From the NCBI GenBank assembly GCA_030430575.1, contig JAUIKF010000001.1, forward strand, positions 62,001 to 126,000: 64,000 nt of DNA, written 5' to 3'. The DNA comes from Bacteroidia bacterium. GTDB taxonomy: Bacteria > Bacteroidota > Bacteroidia > J057. Within the stretch, counting starts at the first letter, position 1. Each line of letters opens with the position of its first letter. The position numbers and the translations under genes are program-made. The notes under the pieces are model-generated. The model worked only from the letters and a program-made list of their open reading frames with translations, made no database searches and had not been told where the DNA came from. Below are positions 3,184 to 45,594 of this stretch, piece after piece.

Positions 3184-4116
3184 TCACTCCCCCACCACCT
3201 TCACTCCCTCGCCATTAATCGGCGAGATAAGCTCAAACGAAGGCACATCGTGTTGGCGGAAGGCATTGCCCATGGCCTGAGCCACAGCCTCAGCAGTGGC
3301 CTTGCCTTTGCATAGCGCAAAGACGGCTGGGCCTGCCCCAGAGATGCTACAGCCAAGGGCGCCAGTTGATAGGGCAGCGGCCTTCACTTTGTCGAAATGC
3401 GGAATCAGCGCGGCACGCGCAGGTTCAATAATGACATCTTGAAGTGACCGCCCGATTAACCCATAATCTGACAAGAACATGGCACCTACCAAAGCCCCTA
3501 GGTTGCTCCACTGGGTGATGGCACTACCCAAGGGAACTTCCCGAGGGAGAACAGCCCGCGCATCTGCCGTCAGAACGACAACTTCAGGCATCGCTATGGC
3601 AGCATAGAGGTCTGGTGGGGTTGGAAGGGAAAAAAAGTCGTGAGAGGCGTGGTCTCTCACAAAGATAAAGCCGCCTAATAAACATGGAGCGACATTGTCT
3701 GCATGCCTTGCTTTACTGGCGAGGGCTTCGCCGTCGAGGGCAAATGGCAATAAATCCGCCTTCTTCAATGGACTACCCAGTAGTTCATTGATAGCGAATG
3801 CGCCTGCGACGGCGCTAGCTGCGCTGGAGCCGAGTCCACTCCCTATGGGCAAACCCTTTTCTATTTCTATGGAAATCCCGCCTGTATAGCCCAAATGGTC
3901 CAATAAAGACTGGGCTGCAACGGTGACGGTATTTTCAGTGGGGTTGAGAGATAATTTACCTTGATCACCAGTAATTTTCGCTATAGAAAGGCCAGTGCCT
4001 TCTGTTTTTTGAACGGTGATGGTATCACCAGGAAAGTTCAATGCAAAACCAACGGTATCAAATCCACATGCAACATTCGCGACAGATGCTGGCGCAAAAA
4101 CCTTTATACGATCCAT
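3184..4116 (-). CDS. thrB: Homoserine kinase
   Basis: Phosphorylates L-homoserine to O-phosphohomoserine with ATP in threonine synthesis (cytoplasmic, GHMP kinase superfamily). At 310 residues it is full length. The N-terminus (MDRIKVFAPASVANVACGFD) is the typical ThrB start, the GHMP ATP-binding loop PIGSGLGSSAAS is at about 90-101, and the C-terminal glycine-rich GCSISGAGPAVFAL motif is at about 258-271. The expected partners thrA (aspartokinase/homoserine dehydrogenase) and thrC are not adjacent: the upstream gene encodes a metallophosphatase and the downstream gene is convergent. In this phylum the three genes are often clustered, so thrB appears detached here. The ATG start is supported by the conserved N-terminus. 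Confidence 0.95.
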   Translation of the reverse strand: MDRIKVFAPASVANVACGFDTVGFALNFPGDTITVQKTEGTGLSIAKITGDQGKLSLNPTENTVTVAAQSLLDHLGYTGGISIEIEKGLPIGSGLGSSAASAVAGAFAINELLGSPLKKADLLPFALDGEALASKARHADNVAPCLLGGFIFVRDHASHDFFSLPTPPDLYAAIAMPEVVVLTADARAVLPREVPLGSAITQWSNLGALVGAMFLSDYGLIGRSLQDVIIEPARAALIPHFDKVKAAALSTGALGCSISGAGPAVFALCKGKATAEAVAQAMGNAFRQHDVPSFELISPINGEGVKVVGE

Positions 4117-4508: not shown

Positions 4509-6611
4509 TCACCTAAATACCACTTTCCTCACATTGGCTTTCCCCTTGATATCAATCTGCAAATAGTAAATACCCCCTGGAATCGGACCAGGCTTCATTT
4601 GTATCCAATTTCGGCCTTTTTCTACCTTCTTGTTCATCTTCACTACTTCCTTTCCACCTCCCCCAAATAGCCGTATCGTAATTTCCTGATCCTCTACAGA
4701 GAAGAAATCAATCGACAAGCTCCGTGGATGAGGTACCGGACTAGGGTAAACCTTAAAATTACTTTCTGATGATCCTGGGCGGATGATCTCTTTGGTATTG
4801 GTGAATTGATATGAACCATCTTGAGCCACAGCCCGAATCCGATAATATGAGTTGCCAGGCAGGGGTTCTTTATCGATATAGAAATATTTTACCCCTTGAA
4901 TTTGCCCCCCCAAATAATCTTGAGTCTTTAAATTGACAAAATTCTGATCTGTTCCTGAACGCTCCACATAGTAGTAATCATGGTCAATCCCAGCGACTGT
5001 TTCCCATCGAATTTCCACGTGGCTATTGGAATTGAGGCGCGCCTCAAATGAATTCCACGCTGGAGGCAATACTGTATTGTCAGCTGTGATTTTTACAGGG
5101 CAAGAATAGCGCTTATTGTTGGCATTGTCATATGCGATCGTCTGGAAGGTATATTGCCCTGGTGCGCTTAAGGTCCAGTTGATATTATAGGGAGGCGAAG
5201 TCATCGTCCCTATAAGCGTACCATCCAGGTACAGTTCTATCTTGGAGACACTTCCGTTCGTATCTGCCGCAGTAGCATCCACCTGAATAGTCTTTGGAAG
5301 GCTAGGATAATGATTACCTGAAATCGGATGCAGGATACTGGTAGTCAGTTTTGGGCGGGTAACCGTCACTACTTGACCAGAAGAAGGTGTCCACAATTGC
5401 AAGTTGGCAGGAGGGGTAAAAATATTGGCATCACTCACTGTACCGACACTTGCGGTCTGGGCACTATCTTGCACCAAGATGGTACGCACTTCAATTTTAT
5501 CTGGGTCAATAAAAATCCATTTGACTTGGTTAAAAGATCCACTTTCCCGCGTCCAGTTTTTATTGTCATTATTGGCTCGGAGAGGTGCCCCCCAGCACCC
5601 TTCTCCAACGAATGTCGTTCCGAATTCGTCGTCTCTCACAAAGCCTTCATCATGGCCTGAGCCCGTAGAAGGCCGTATAGGCCAGGTAGTCTTCACTGTA
5701 TGGGCGTCACACTCCACGACCAGGTTGAAATTGAATTCGTAAAAAAGCGGTGACCAGTAGGTGTATTGGTTCCACCCTTCTCCCTTGGAGGCTACGTGTG
5801 GTCGCATCGGCTTATGGTACTGAGCCATCCTCCACAATACCCCACAATTATCAGCAAGATCTTCTTCTAACCAAGAGGTTTGGTTTCCATTGATCGCTAT
5901 CTCTGTATTCAGGGTGTATGCCCTCACCAGATTTCCCCCAAAGGTAATGGCATAATAAGCATCTGAAGTCGTATTAAAAAGATTCTTAATCGTCTGGCTC
6001 GAATACTCGTGGTTGCCCCGAGCGGGGATGATGGGGATCATCCGTCCATCCGTACCTATGGTCAATTGCCAGTCATCTAGCCAGGCAGCCCATTGGCTAT
6101 TGCTATCGCCATCCGTCATGTCTCCTCCAAACAACACCGCATGTGGACGTAATTTCGCCACTAAACGATTCGCGTTTTGACGTGGGGCACGGTTGTTTCG
6201 GGAGTCCCCTCCAGCGATAAAAGAAAGGCGGCTATTCGGTGTATTATCGGCCGTTTTGAACCAAAATCGCTGGCTTCTCCCCAATTCATCTCCTACCACA
6301 AAATAGTAGATCGTATTAGGAGAAAGGCCCGTTAGTTTCACGAAACGATTATTCATCCCACGATGAGAATTGGCCGATGTCACCCCTCGTCGATTGTTGT
6401 ACAGACTGGTGTCAGTGCCATGGTCTGTCAAATCATAATAGACAAAGTGGCGTACGCCAGTGACAGCCTCCCAGCCTATCACCATAGTAGATGAGGGATC
6501 ATCATTCCAGATAATCCTGTACCTTTGGCTCGTCGCATGAGCCTCTTGTATGCTCAGGGTCAGGGAGCACAAGGCAAGTAAGATCGTTGCAATAAATTGG
6601 GTCCTTTTCAT
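4509..6611 (-). CDS. Secreted purple-acid-phosphatase-like metallophosphoesterase with T9SS sorting domain
   Basis: A 700-residue exported phosphoesterase. A signal peptide (1-26) is followed by a fibronectin-like N-domain as in purple acid phosphatases (about 28-125). The calcineurin-like metallophosphoesterase core shows GGDSR (134-138), GGDMTDGD (162-169), GNHE (199-202), a histidine in QYHKP (266) and ECDAH (300-304), the last replacing the usual GHxH. A bacterial Ig-like domain (about 425-515), an FN3-like segment and a T9SS type A domain (NFKVYPSPVP... to KVVFR) follow. It probably hydrolyses extracellular phosphoesters for phosphate acquisition; the substrate cannot be read from sequence. 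The promoter candidate lies inside the 3' end of the upstream pullulanase gene. Confidence 0.88.
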   Translation of the reverse strand: MKRTQFIATILLALCSLTLSIQEAHATSQRYRIIWNDDPSSTMVIGWEAVTGVRHFVYYDLTDHGTDTSLYNNRRGVTSANSHRGMNNRFVKLTGLSPNTIYYFVVGDELGRSQRFWFKTADNTPNSRLSFIAGGDSRNNRAPRQNANRLVAKLRPHAVLFGGDMTDGDSNSQWAAWLDDWQLTIGTDGRMIPIIPARGNHEYSSQTIKNLFNTTSDAYYAITFGGNLVRAYTLNTEIAINGNQTSWLEEDLADNCGVLWRMAQYHKPMRPHVASKGEGWNQYTYWSPLFYEFNFNLVVECDAHTVKTTWPIRPSTGSGHDEGFVRDDEFGTTFVGEGCWGAPLRANNDNKNWTRESGSFNQVKWIFIDPDKIEVRTILVQDSAQTASVGTVSDANIFTPPANLQLWTPSSGQVVTVTRPKLTTSILHPISGNHYPSLPKTIQVDATAADTNGSVSKIELYLDGTLIGTMTSPPYNINWTLSAPGQYTFQTIAYDNANNKRYSCPVKITADNTVLPPAWNSFEARLNSNSHVEIRWETVAGIDHDYYYVERSGTDQNFVNLKTQDYLGGQIQGVKYFYIDKEPLPGNSYYRIRAVAQDGSYQFTNTKEIIRPGSSESNFKVYPSPVPHPRSLSIDFFSVEDQEITIRLFGGGGKEVVKMNKKVEKGRNWIQMKPGPIPGGIYYLQIDIKGKANVRKVVFR

Positions 6612-40199: not shown

Positions 40200-41414
40200 C
40201 TAAACAAAGAATTCCTTCACTTTCTGTAAGCCTGCTATGAGTTTGTCTATTTCTTCTTTGGTATTGTAGAAGGCAAATGAGGCGCGAATGGTACCAGGAA
40301 CATCAAAAAACTGCATCACAGGCTGGGTACAATGATGCCCTGTCCGGACGGCGATCCCCATCCTATCGAGCAGGGTACCAGCATCATAAGGATGTATGCC
40401 TTCCATAACAAATGAAAGTACACTTGCTTTATCTTCAGCAGTTCCTATAAGTTTAATTCCATCAATAGACCGGAGCTTTTCTGTCCCATAAGCCAAAAGC
40501 TCAGCCTCATAATCTGCAATAGCCTGATAACCAACCGATTCCACATATTCCAAGGCAGTAGATAGGGCTATCGTATCTGCAATATTTGGCGTCCCAGCTT
40601 CAAACTTATGCGGCAGGCCTGCATAAGTAGTTTTGTCAAATCGTACTAATTCGATCATATCTCCCCCCCCCATATAGGGCGGCATATCAGTTAGCCATTT
40701 TTCTTTCCCATACAAAATTCCAATCCCTGTAGGCCCAAATACTTTATGCCCAGAGAACACATAAAAATCAACATCTAGCGCTTTTACATCGATCTGCATA
40801 TGAGGTGCAGCCTGGGCACCGTCAACTAATACCGCGGCTCCCACAGCATGGGCATCTGCCACCATCTGCTGGATGGGATTGATGGTTCCTAGAGAGTTGG
40901 AAACATGGGTAACAGCGACCATTTTGGTGCGGTCGCTCAAGAGCTTTCTGTAAGCTTCTAGATCCAGTGTCCCTGTTTCATCCATAGGGATGACCTTGAC
41001 GGTAGCGCCTTTGCGACTAGCAAGCATCTGCCAAGGGACGATATTGGAGTGGTGCTCCATCTGGCTGATGATAATTTCGTCGCCCTCATTTACATACTTT
41101 TCTCCAAAAGAATAAGCCACCAAATTGATGCCTTCAGTAGTCCCTTTGGTGTAAATAACTTCATGCAACTTTTCAGCCCTGATTAGTTGCTGGACTCGTG
41201 TCCGAGTAGCTTCATAATGATCTGTGGCAGTCTGACTGAGAAAATGTACCCCACGATGAACATTGCTATTTTCTCTTTGATAATATTGGGTAATGCGGTC
41301 TATGACTACTTGCGGTTTTTGAGAAGTAGCAGCATTATCAAGGTAAATTAAAGGCTTGTCATACACTTTTTGTTGAAGTGCAGGAAAGTCCTTACGGATA
41401 GCTTCTATGTCCAT
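40200..41414 (-). CDS. sufS: Cysteine desulfurase SufS
   Basis: 404 residues, a PLP-dependent group II cysteine desulfurase. It removes sulphur from L-cysteine as persulphide and passes it to SufE and SufBCD for Fe-S cluster assembly. PLP lysine is Lys224 in FSGHKVFGPTG, and the persulphide-forming Cys362 lies in VRTGHHCTQP, the group II/SufS-type signature (RTGHHC). MEHHSNIVPWQ and LVDGAQAAPHM fit the cofactor pocket. It starts 15 nt after the sufD stop, so cotranscription with sufD is likely. Confidence 0.97.
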   Translation of the reverse strand: MDIEAIRKDFPALQQKVYDKPLIYLDNAATSQKPQVVIDRITQYYQRENSNVHRGVHFLSQTATDHYEATRTRVQQLIRAEKLHEVIYTKGTTEGINLVAYSFGEKYVNEGDEIIISQMEHHSNIVPWQMLASRKGATVKVIPMDETGTLDLEAYRKLLSDRTKMVAVTHVSNSLGTINPIQQMVADAHAVGAAVLVDGAQAAPHMQIDVKALDVDFYVFSGHKVFGPTGIGILYGKEKWLTDMPPYMGGGDMIELVRFDKTTYAGLPHKFEAGTPNIADTIALSTALEYVESVGYQAIADYEAELLAYGTEKLRSIDGIKLIGTAEDKASVLSFVMEGIHPYDAGTLLDRMGIAVRTGHHCTQPVMQFFDVPGTIRASFAFYNTKEEIDKLIAGLQKVKEFFV

Positions 41415-41429: not shown

Positions 41430-42716
41430 TTAATCAGTTATTCCAGCGAAACGTGCGGTGATCAGCTGGTCTATATATCCAACTACAGCATCCATGGTGA
41501 TGCCGTCAAGCGTCTCTGCGCCAAAGGCGTGAATCAGCAGTTGCTGTGCTTCCTCCATAGGGACACCACGTGCACGAAGGTAAAAGAGGGCCTCCTCTTC
41601 TATTCTCCCTGTAGTAGCTCCATGGCTACATTTCACATCATCTGCATAGATTTCAAGTTGAGGCTTGGTATTGACACTCGCTGTGTCTGTCAGCAAAATA
41701 TTCCGATTCGATTGGTAGGCATTTGTTTTTTGGGCCGGCTGGTGAACGTGGATTTTCCCCCGAAAAGCAGCCGTCGATTTACCTCCCAATATTCCTTTAT
41801 AGAGTTCATTGCTATAGGAATTTGGGGCAAAATGATGTACCAAACTGTGATTGTCTACATGTTGATTGTCTTTCAGCATGTAAAGGCCATTGAGAACAGA
41901 CTCTGTATTAGGGCCTTTTAGGTGAAAATGCAGGTTATTTCTGATCCAATTTCCCCCCATACTCAGGGTATATGTCTTGACGCGGCTGTCACTTGCTTGA
42001 GAAATTTCAGTTTGATCTACCATCATCCCTGCTTCTCCTTCCTCCTGAAGTTTCACATATTCCAGGCCTGCATTTTCTTTTACAAAAATCTCCGTAACAG
42101 CATTCCTGAAACTAGGCGTATCATTGCTACTGTGAAATGATTCTAGGACCTTCACCTTAGCATGTTTCTCCACCAAAAACAGGTTGCGCATTTGCACACT
42201 TTGCGCAGCTGTAGCGTGCTGTATATGAAGAAGATGAATAGGGCGTTCTACCACACCTTTGGCATGGATAAATACGCCTTCAGCCGCATAGGCAGTGTTT
42301 AGCGCAGAAAATATCTGCCCTTCTGGTGAAGTTATTTTTCCATAATAATCCGAAAAAACCGCTGCTGTTTCTCCTTCAAGCTCGCTGAGCAAAGTGACAG
42401 AAACGGTATCTTCCAACTCGCCTATTTGGGAGAGAGATTTGCTATATACCCCATTGACAAATACCAATACATTGGCCTCAAAGTCAGGGATCAAATACGC
42501 CGCGAGGTTGTCAATCTCAGCATGGTTCGCAGGCTGAAATTGGTGCTTTAAAATAGGGCGTAGATTGCTATACTTCCACTCCTCCCATTTGGTAGTGGGC
42601 AATTCCAATATATTTAATGCTGACATGGCCAATTCCCTCACTTCATTCGGCAAGGAGGTCGGTAATGTCTGAGGTTGGAATTGTTGTATAAATTCTTTCG
42701 TCTTTGTTGACTGCAT
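41430..42716 (-). CDS. sufD: Fe-S cluster assembly protein SufD
   Basis: 428 residues, the SufB paralogue in the SufBC2D scaffold complex. The beta-helix core and the C-terminal SGATTGRIEEEALFYLRARG-type segment (here CSHGATTGRIEEEALFYLRA, about 366-385) are characteristic. It is 222 nt downstream of sufC, an unusually wide gap for this operon. The gap holds a 104-nt imperfect dyad and a CTCAAGTTC/TTGAGTTTGAG word pair just upstream of the ATG. It is followed closely by sufS. Confidence 0.96.
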   Translation of the reverse strand: MQSTKTKEFIQQFQPQTLPTSLPNEVRELAMSALNILELPTTKWEEWKYSNLRPILKHQFQPANHAEIDNLAAYLIPDFEANVLVFVNGVYSKSLSQIGELEDTVSVTLLSELEGETAAVFSDYYGKITSPEGQIFSALNTAYAAEGVFIHAKGVVERPIHLLHIQHATAAQSVQMRNLFLVEKHAKVKVLESFHSSNDTPSFRNAVTEIFVKENAGLEYVKLQEEGEAGMMVDQTEISQASDSRVKTYTLSMGGNWIRNNLHFHLKGPNTESVLNGLYMLKDNQHVDNHSLVHHFAPNSYSNELYKGILGGKSTAAFRGKIHVHQPAQKTNAYQSNRNILLTDTASVNTKPQLEIYADDVKCSHGATTGRIEEEALFYLRARGVPMEEAQQLLIHAFGAETLDGITMDAVVGYIDQLITARFAGITD

Positions 42717-42938: not shown

Positions 42939-43691
42939 TCAGGCTCCAACTCCTTCTTTCAGCCAATCATAGCCTTTTTCCTCTAATTCCAGCGCCAATT
43001 CTTTCCCTCCTGAGCGGACGATTTTCCCTTCTGAAAGCACATGGACGAAGTCTGGAACGATGTATTCCAATAAGCGCTGGTAGTGAGTGATCACCAGAAA
43101 AGCATTGTCTTTGCTTCGAAATTGATTCACAGCATCAGAAACGATGCGCAAGGCATCAATATCAAGGCCCGAATCCGTTTCGTCCATCAGGACAAGCGAA
43201 GGCTCAAGCATGGCCATTTGGAAGATTTCATTGCGCTTCTTTTCACCACCTGAGAATCCTTCGTTGACAGCACGTTTCAGCAATTTGTCATCGAGGTTGA
43301 CAATCTCTTTCTTTTCCCGCATCAGTTTGAGAAACTGACCAGCTGAGAGGGGCTCTTGCTTGCGATATTCACGAATGGAATTGAGAGATGCCCGCATGAA
43401 ATTAACCATGCTCACGCCTGGGATCTCAACGGGATATTGAAAGGCGAGAAATAGGCCTTCGCCAGCACGCTCCTCGGGCGCCATATCAAGCATATCTTTG
43501 CCGTGATATAGTACTTCACCTTCGGTGACTTCATAGTCTTCTTTTCCAGCAAGAACTGAAGCCAAGGTACTTTTCCCAGAGCCATTGGGGCCCATAATGG
43601 CGTGTACTTCGCCAGCCTTCATCTCCAAATTGAGGCCTTTCAGGATGGCTTTATCGTCGATAGAGGCGTGTAGGTTTTTTATTGAAAGCAT
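42939..43691 (-). CDS. sufC: Fe-S assembly ATPase SufC
   Basis: 250 residues, the ABC-type ATPase of the SufBC2D complex; ATP hydrolysis drives conformational change in the scaffold. Walker A is GPNGSGKST (34-42), the signature is FSGGEKKRNEI (about 145-155), Walker B is VLMDETDSGLD (about 168-178) and the switch His is in VITHYQRL. There are no membrane segments, as expected. It lies between sufB and sufD in the standard order, but with long spacers on both sides (180 and 222 nt). Confidence 0.97.
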   Translation of the reverse strand: MLSIKNLHASIDDKAILKGLNLEMKAGEVHAIMGPNGSGKSTLASVLAGKEDYEVTEGEVLYHGKDMLDMAPEERAGEGLFLAFQYPVEIPGVSMVNFMRASLNSIREYRKQEPLSAGQFLKLMREKKEIVNLDDKLLKRAVNEGFSGGEKKRNEIFQMAMLEPSLVLMDETDSGLDIDALRIVSDAVNQFRSKDNAFLVITHYQRLLEYIVPDFVHVLSEGKIVRSGGKELALELEEKGYDWLKEGVGA

Positions 43692-43871: not shown

Positions 43872-45320
43872 TTACCCTACACTTCCTTCTAGTGAGATGG
43901 AAAGCAATTTTTGGGCTTCAACGGCAAATTCCATCGGTAGTTGATTGAGGACTTCTTTCGCGTAGCCATTGACAATCAGGCCTACTGCTGTCTCCTCATC
44001 AAGTCCACGCTGGGTGCAATAGAAGATCTGGTCTTCACCGATTTTGGAGGTGGTAGCTTCGTGTTCTACTTTGGCGGTGCTATTGCCCACCTCTATATAA
44101 GGAAAGGTGTGGGCACCACATTGGTCACCGACCAATAGGGAGTCGCACTGGGAGAAGTTTCGGGCATTTTCTGCACCTTTCCCAATTCGGACAAGGCCTC
44201 TGTAGCTATTATTGCTATGGCCAGCGGAGATCCCTTTAGAAATGATCAAGCTAGTGGTATTCTTGCCCAAATGGATCATCTTGGTCCCTGTATCAGCCTG
44301 CTGCATACCGTTGGTCACGGCGACAGAGAAAAATTCTCCTCGGCTATTGTCTCCTTTCAGGATGACAGAAGGATATTTCCAGGTAATGGCTGATCCCGTT
44401 TCTACCTGTGTCCAAGAGATCTTGGCATTTCTTCCTTTACAAATGCCACGCTTTGTGACAAAATTATAGATACCACCAGCACCCGTTTTGAAGTCACCTG
44501 GGTACCAGTTTTGGACAGTAGAATATTTGATCTCAGCATCTTCGTCCGCGATCAGCTCCACGACAGCAGCATGTAGTTGGTTTTCATCCCGAATCGGGGC
44601 TGTACAGCCTTCGAGGTAGCTCACATAAGACTTCTCTTCTGCGATGATCAGCGTCCGCTCAAATTGCCCTGTATTCTGCTCATTGATTCGGAAGTAAGTG
44701 GATAACTCCATCGGGCAACGGACACCTTTGGGAATATATACAAACGAACCGTCTGTAAAGACAGCTGCATTCAGCGCTGCATAATAATTGTCGGTATAAG
44801 GAACCACCGTACCCAGATACTTCCGAACGAGTTCGGGATGGTCTTGAAGGGCTTCGCTCATCGAGCAGAAGATGACGCCTTTTTCCGCTAATTTCTCCTT
44901 ATAGGTCGTCTTAATGGAAACAGAATCTACAACCGCATCTACAGCCACCCCAGCTAGCGCTTTTTGCTCTTCCAATGGAATCCCCAATTTTTCAAAGGTT
45001 CGCAACAACTCTGGATCTACTTCATCCAAGCTATTGAGTTTAGGCTTTGATTTAGGGGCAGAATAGTAAATGATATTTTGGAAATCGATTGGAGGATAAT
45101 CGACATGTGCCCAGTCTGGCTCGGTCAAGGTGAGCCAATGTTGATACGCTTTTAAGCGGTATTCCAACATGAAGGCAGGTTCTTTTTTCTTAGAAGAAAT
45201 GAGTCGGATAATATCCTCATTTAAGCCCTTAGGAGCCTGATCTGACTCGATTTCTGTAACAAATCCGAACTCGTATTTTTGTTCAGAACCCAGTTCTTTT
45301 ATCAGCTGATCTTCAGTCAT
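43872..45320 (-). CDS. sufB: Fe-S cluster assembly protein SufB
   Basis: 482 residues, the scaffold subunit on which Fe-S clusters are built together with SufC and Suf[55 protein letters not shown] and [15 protein letters not shown] are highly conserved SufB segments. First gene of sufBCDS. The region upstream has a candidate promoter covered by a 25-bp palindrome, and farther upstream a hexamer array separates it from pyrG. The ATG at 45320 fits the usual length. Confidence 0.97.
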
Positions 45321-45382
45321 ATTGAGTGTGTATTCTAAAGAAAAAAAGCCCTATAAATTGGCACGATACTAAAATGGACCGT

Positions 45383-45417
45383 AAAGGTACCACTTATTTA
45401 GAATAATCCTAAATAAG
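45383..45417 (-). promoter_or_regulatory. Candidate sufB promoter with overlapping 25-bp operator-like palindrome
   Basis: On the minus strand a TACCTTTA box (at 45390-45383, one mismatch to TAnnTTTG) lies about 63 nt upstream of the sufB ATG. Directly upstream, 45393-45417, is CTTATTTAG-7 nt-CTAAATAAG, a perfect 9-bp dyad. It occupies the space between the -7 and -33 positions, ideal for a repressor. The TTTAG...CTAAA form recalls iron-dependent DtxR-type boxes, which is an inference. Confidence 0.5.
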
Positions 45418-45494: not shown

Positions 45495-45594
45495 AAGTTC
45501 AAGTTCAAGTTCAAGTTCAAGTTCAAGTTCAAGTTCAAGTTCAAGAAGTTACTTTGAGTTTGAGTTTGAGTTTGAGTTTGAATTTGAGTTTGAA
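45495..45594. repeat. Hexamer arrays AAGTTC x8 and TTTGAG/TTTGAA x7 facing each other
   Basis: Eight perfect AAGTTC units (45495-45542) are followed after 10 nt by seven units of TTTGAG (five) and TTTGAA (two) at 45553-45594. The two arrays are complementary in every unit if G-T pairs are allowed. They lie between the pyrG stop and the sufB promoter. Translation would give only Ser or Phe-Glu runs, so I treat it as non-coding. Confidence 0.9.

Follow-up and report, generated by a model that had tools for sequence, protein, structure and literature searches.

We propose that the palindrome upstream of sufB in this Bacteroidia genome (hereafter the host) is probably a Fur box of the Bacteroidota type, through which iron-loaded Fur would repress sufBCDS. 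The proposal is built on the box itself, its match to a Riemerella sequence, class-wide conservation at suf, an iron-related set of downstream genes and a Fur gene in the host, all of which were computed; from these we infer Fur binding, the direction of control and the position of the sufB promoter. Iron-loaded Fur would bind this box, which lies against or across the putative promoter, and block transcription when iron is ample; when iron is scarce Fur would leave the box and the SUF machinery would be made. For the acting Fur the likeliest candidate is the product of the gene next to purA on contig C11. An anonymous palindrome thus becomes a testable regulon, and the control of suf in this group is placed, as a prediction, under a known iron sensor. 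The sufB box is best read as an element of a known kind, and the new part would be the fixed upstream spacing of the same box at the operon for alternative complex III (ACIII, act), together with a shorter one at the aconitase gene (acn).

The window, by which we mean the whole 64,000-nucleotide stretch of DNA that was analysed, carries the suf genes on its minus strand. The first gene after the box is sufB (43872..45320; NF008773 at 909.6 bits for a cut-off of 717, with TIGR01980 also over its cut-off), followed by sufC (42939..43691; TIGR01978 over cut-off), a sufD-like gene between sufC and sufS (41430..42716; assigned from a SUFBD_core match, PF01458, of 282.9 bits and from its place in the operon) and sufS (40200..41414; TIGR01979 over cut-off). 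The initial annotation had described a dyad with 9-bp arms and a 7-nt centre. A pattern scan recovers it with the same arms at the same place (45393..45417, assigned to neither strand), as the sole match in the window with at most three mismatches, and one of 100 shuffled sequences contained such a match. The centre of this dyad is itself symmetric, so that the palindrome extends to 12-1-12 with one mismatch, and we therefore take the unit to be 19 bp long with a 9-1-9 layout; this box, at 45396..45414 (minus), reads ATTTAGGATTATTCTAAAT on the sufB strand. A scan of the plus strand of the window for the core ATTTAGANTNANTCTAAAT with up to two mismatches has its sole match at this box. Between the dyad and the sufB ATG (45320) the distance is 72 nt, where about 70 nt had been annotated, and from the end of the 19-bp box it is 75 nt. 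The candidate -7 box TACCTTTA (45382..45389, minus) does lie 3 nt from the dyad on the coding strand, as annotated, though it has only five of the six consensus bases, and the promoter position that it implies is tentative. The genus-mate G001 has a different five-of-six word, TAACTTCG, one base further on than the host's candidate, and of the features observed at sufB the -7 box is the weakest. The window also holds two hexanucleotide arrays at 45495-45593, (AAGTTC) in 8.5 copies and (TTTGAG) in 6.8 copies, in the gap that separates sufB from its upstream neighbour gene.

The identity of the box is suggested by work on Riemerella anatipestifer, whose Fur box is ATTTAGAATTATTCTAAAT and in which four promoters, including that of RAYM_01847, were gel-shifted by purified Fur (PMC5609570). 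The RAYM_01847 box, ATTTAGAATTATCCTAAAT in Table 5 of that paper, differs from the window 19-mer only at the centre base, and the rhuB promoter, which carries the same 19-mer ATTTAGAATTATCCTAAAT, is shifted by purified Fur with a requirement for Fe2+ (PMC10986502). The Fur box sequence ATTTAGAATNATTCTAAAT, also of 19 bp, has one mismatch to the window site. Because of this near-identity we read the site as the known Bacteroidota Fur box, and not as that of a DtxR-type or undescribed regulator; the earlier suggestions that the half-sites were closer to a DtxR layout than to a Fur box, and that the regulator might be undescribed, are not supported. We took the Riemerella box from Table 5 of the original paper, PMC5609570, and not from PMC7976709, where the E. 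coli consensus is printed as the Riemerella box. The likeness includes position and targets, as the host site, like the Riemerella boxes, lies within about 100 bp of a start codon (here that of sufB) and iron genes stand downstream. There are differences, however. The host copy is predicted to control suf, which is absent from the boxes listed in Table 5 of PMC5609570, and many of the relatives' suf copies vary at the second position on either side of the centre.

The published expression data for Riemerella count partly against a Fur reading. In the array of PMC5609570 iron restriction raises expression of the suf genes in both the wild type and the fur mutant (Table 3); the same is true of hmuR and hmuY, yet the authors count these as Fur targets, and they place an imelysin among the Fur-regulated genes (Table 4). 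In the same array feoA and feoB are lower in the fur mutant, which conflicts with the 4-5-fold higher expression given in PMC10434265. There seems to be a second iron input in Riemerella. Our search of the open-licence literature found no paper linking the box to suf, act or acn, and several of the literature searches gave nothing useful on DtxR or Fur motifs in Bacteroidota.

Phylogenetic footprinting had been proposed as a check on the annotated operator. We sought SufB in 60 genomes, host included, and matched it in 48; G006, G029 and G056 had no usable sufB start, which left 45 Bacteroidia genomes, each with an upstream stretch between 330 and 2000 nt long. The core ATTTAGANTNANTCTAAAT, allowed two mismatches and required within 900 nt of sufB, occurs in 35 of the 45, and the reversed pattern used as control in two (G033 and G050). 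Within the host's family all 11 genomes have it. The ten stretches without a core site belong to G022, G025, G036, G037, G041, G042, G045, G052, G054 and G055, and for G025 there is a site further out, at -1192. In many relatives a sufA-like gene comes first, and the box then precedes that gene. A lack of conservation upstream of sufB in relatives had been named as a refutation of the operator, and the footprint did not refute it. This conservation, with the content of the regulon described below, supports the view that the suf promoter carries an operator, for which control by iron is the best, still putative, reading.

Beyond suf, the core with at most one mismatch gives 182 sites in the 60 genomes (12 for the reversed pattern), with at least one site in 54 of them. 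Around the start of feoB, 16 of the 30 loci searched have a core site and none has the control pattern, although two of the 16 (in G059 and G024) are very near the feoB start and perhaps due to chance; a further set of feo loci gave four in 12, control 0. Single loci in relatives have the box near genes for HmuY (L195, L204), haem oxygenase (L197), TonB-dependent receptor plug domains (L194, L200), DUF4856 (L199), a periplasmic binding protein (L215) and an IscS-like aminotransferase (L206), while no iron-related neighbour was seen at the box loci L193, L203 (on its other side) and L210. The exact 19-mer with A or T at its centre was found in 21 stretches of a contig database, 11 of which belong to records named for Bacteroidota or for a member of the phylum; six of these precede an aconitase and one sufB (L079), the other 14 stretches showed no obvious target, and Riemerella is not among the records listed.

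The halves of the box are not equally kept. Over the 35 suf sites the gene-facing half has four mismatches and the other half 26; the left half is the worse in 20 sites, the right in two, and 13 are equal (p = 6e-5, a value that is only indicative, since the genomes are related). The 11 feo sites compared have two and ten mismatches, respectively. We considered a separate motif for suf, in which the second position from the centre is free, and dropped it because other sites within one genome, e.g. G053, have the same freedom.

A scan of the host genome for the dyad, also proposed initially, depends on the form that is used. With a blank 7-nt centre, as first annotated, there are nine matches and ten for the reversed control, hence no excess, and we replaced this pattern by the 19-bp form. 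That form (up to three mismatches) gives 17 matches against six, and the core ATTTAGANTNANTCTAAAT (up to one mismatch) gives five against none. The five core sites stand before sufB, feoAB, a DUF4856-imelysin pair, the actA/ypdA region and a 30-codon ORF. Thus the host box precedes iron-uptake genes of its own genome, as a Fur box should: at feo, 10 nt separate the end of the box from the feoA ATG, with feoB next, and the DUF4856-imelysin site lies 16 nt before its gene pair. The fourth site is located between ypdA (TIGR04018) and an actA-like gene; the product of the latter has multihaem cytochrome domains, and its neighbour has 4Fe-4S domains. The 30-codon ORF, on contig C100 (L054 3056-3148), is rich in Cys and Lys and begins 34 nt after a box with one mismatch; it has no Pfam match and no likeness among the 233 loci compared. 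A weaker host site, two mismatches from the 19-mer (C83:6118; L053 3119), lies before a LuxR-type response regulator gene, and in the distant genome G053 a perfect-core site (L203) is also beside such a gene.

Which protein reads the box can be examined by comparing the genomes that lack a given family. The candidate Fur of the host, on C11, matches PF01475 at about 100.5-100.8 bits, its closest solved chains are named ferric uptake regulation protein, and its gene is followed by purA (PF00709), the order described also in Flavobacterium psychrophilum, which has a single Fur (PMC9331221). Fur-family proteins are present in 58 of the 60 genomes and DtxR-family proteins in 53. The host has two DtxR/MntR-family genes, on C57 and on C56 (the latter fused to a metal ABC permease), and its site contains TTAGG and CTAA words like those of a DtxR box, so a protein of this family could be imagined to bind it. 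We consider this very unlikely. Genomes without a DtxR-family match (no PF02742 match) keep sites, namely ten in G053, four in G027, three in G039 and one in G056, which means that DtxR is not needed; G053 has the most sites of all 60 genomes, and suf sites are present in G027, G039 and G053. Other DtxR-free genomes, G037, G045 and G052, have none. Conversely, G055, which has DtxR but not Fur, has no site genome-wide and none at suf or feo; the box is found at none of 31 dtxR loci, and the Riemerella promoters carrying the box sequence bind Fur. The other Fur-free genome, G049, a 99% complete draft and the only representative of its family among those examined, does have a DtxR-family protein and two sites, one of them a perfect-core suf site before a sufA-like gene, with no core site upstream of its feo. 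A Fur reading therefore fits the distribution of sites in all Fur-free and DtxR-free genomes but G049, the one exception. Between the suf genes of G049 (L233) there are two small ORFs of like sequence, at 3318-3713 and 5274-5696. As for autoregulation, the 30 fur loci searched for the box gave one weak site, the host's own, with two core mismatches and 573 nt before the matched domain, and we rejected the idea.

The suf box of G049, which has no Fur-family match, together with the iron response retained by the Riemerella fur mutant (PMC5609570), hints at a second, unknown reader of the box. This could be an unknown iron sensor or another Fur-family paralogue, acting alone or with Fur, and the host has two such paralogues besides the C11 protein, on C97 and C27. 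These two are far weaker matches to the family, however (46.6 and 36.7 bits, compared with 100.8), and many site-bearing genomes have a single Fur-family match, e.g. G023, G027, G029, G038 and G039; we regard this alternative to the C11 Fur as unlikely. Assembly operons for Fe-S clusters are often under sensors of the IscR or SufR type, but, judged from a search for the Rrf2 family, such a sensor is a highly improbable reader of this box. The only Rrf2-family match in the host, on C73, scores 50.4 bits to IscR for a cut-off of 207.55, so that IscR was not found in the host genome; this gene is beside a nosZ-like gene, which makes a role with nitrogen oxides likelier. The box also occurs before feo, haem and respiratory genes. 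If Fur controls suf in the host, as we propose, it would do so in a genome in which no IscR was found.

The dyad might instead act as an RNA hairpin in the 5′ leader. The dyad stretch can fold at -7.5 kcal/mol, and in the 23 of 35 suf promoters where an exact -7 box is found just before the site, the box would be transcribed. Nevertheless, such a role is highly improbable: mirrored positions in the 35 suf sites pair no more commonly than independent halves would, the second position from the centre pairs in only 16 of them even when G-U is included, and the inferred promoters of act and acn have the box on their upstream side.

The proposed Fur box can be compared with better-studied operators. 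The Fur and PerR boxes of Bacillus, TGATAATNATTATCA and TTATAATNATTATAA, have a 7-1-7 layout and share the odd-centred register of the host box, of which the portion TTAGAATNATTCTAA is one change per half away from the PerR box; the host box differs in having G/C at the fourth position and flanks conserved to 9-1-9. The DtxR/IdeR box, TTAGGTTAGCCTAACCTAA, is likewise 19 bp long with TTAG and CTAA words, but these stand in another register from the centre, and the host motif persists in genomes with no DtxR-family match. The E. coli sufA promoter is under Fur, with IscR and OxyR inputs added. Iron-dependent repression of suf is what we propose for the host also, whereas an IscR input was not found there.

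The position of the box relative to the promoter differs between targets. Of the 35 suf promoters, 23 have an exact TAnnTTTG whose end is 1 to 18 nt ahead of the box, and two have an exact one after it; the host and genus-mate sufB promoters have just a five-of-six -7 word, which begins 6 or 7 nt past the box. Where the box overlaps or closely follows the -7 element, as it does at suf and at several genes for feo and haem uptake, binding would bring repression with iron. At the ACIII operon and at aconitase it is found well upstream, 55-56 or 44 nt before a -7-like word, where iron-loaded Fur might activate directly. One operator would then serve in two geometries, a reading to which we give slightly less than even weight, since only two of the nine words at the 55-56 nt spacing are exact. 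The fixed upstream position at act and acn suggests iron-dependent activation, and since the two spacings are about one helical turn apart, direct activation by Fur may be possible. If true, Fur itself would bring about iron sparing in Bacteroidota, with no RyhB-like sRNA involved, and the act spacing offers a direct test of Fur activation of respiration genes in this phylum.

The Riemerella gene product named 'cytochrome c oxidoreductase quinone-binding subunit 1' is presumably an ACIII subunit. It and aconitase fall on iron restriction, and it is lower still without Fur (PMC5609570, Table 2); aconitase also falls in the fur mutant, which argues against an effect of Fur alone. A fall of respiratory cytochrome genes is also recorded in PMC5429918. 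ACIII is an iron-rich complex, in which ActA carries six c-type haems and ActB has iron-sulfur clusters (PMC8552683).

The act set consists of 12 loci, the host's and 11 of 29 new core-site loci that were found before an ActA homologue; these 11 homologues are 35 to 64% identical to the host protein. In nine of the 12 the distance from the box to the start of a -7-like word is 55 or 56 nt: the host (C41:56244-56262; L055 6245-6263), L191, L202, L211, L213, L214, L216, L217 and L218. In L196 the word is at 44, in L208 at 65, and none was found in L207. The exact TAnnTTTG accounts for only two of the nine words, the others being the variants T[AT]ANYTTG and CTAATTTG, which were chosen after viewing the sequences and so favour the finding; the background rate of the same words at offsets 55-56 in these loci is 0.0020. 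The spacers have a median identity of 0.35 (one pair reaching 0.79), compared with 0.89 for the box, and by eye a TTTG precedes the -7-like word by 18 to 22 nt in eight of the nine. All the act and acn loci were found by means of the box, and therefore are silent on how often either gene occurs without it. The six aconitase promoters, from Sphingobacteriaceae, all have TAAATTCG starting 44 nt after the box, but their spacers are alike (median identity 0.68), and some have two other five-of-six words further on. In these loci (L065 and L071-L075, from Pedobacter and one Sphingobacteriaceae MAG) the exact A/T-centre box is upstream of aconitase, about 96 nt from its start codon.
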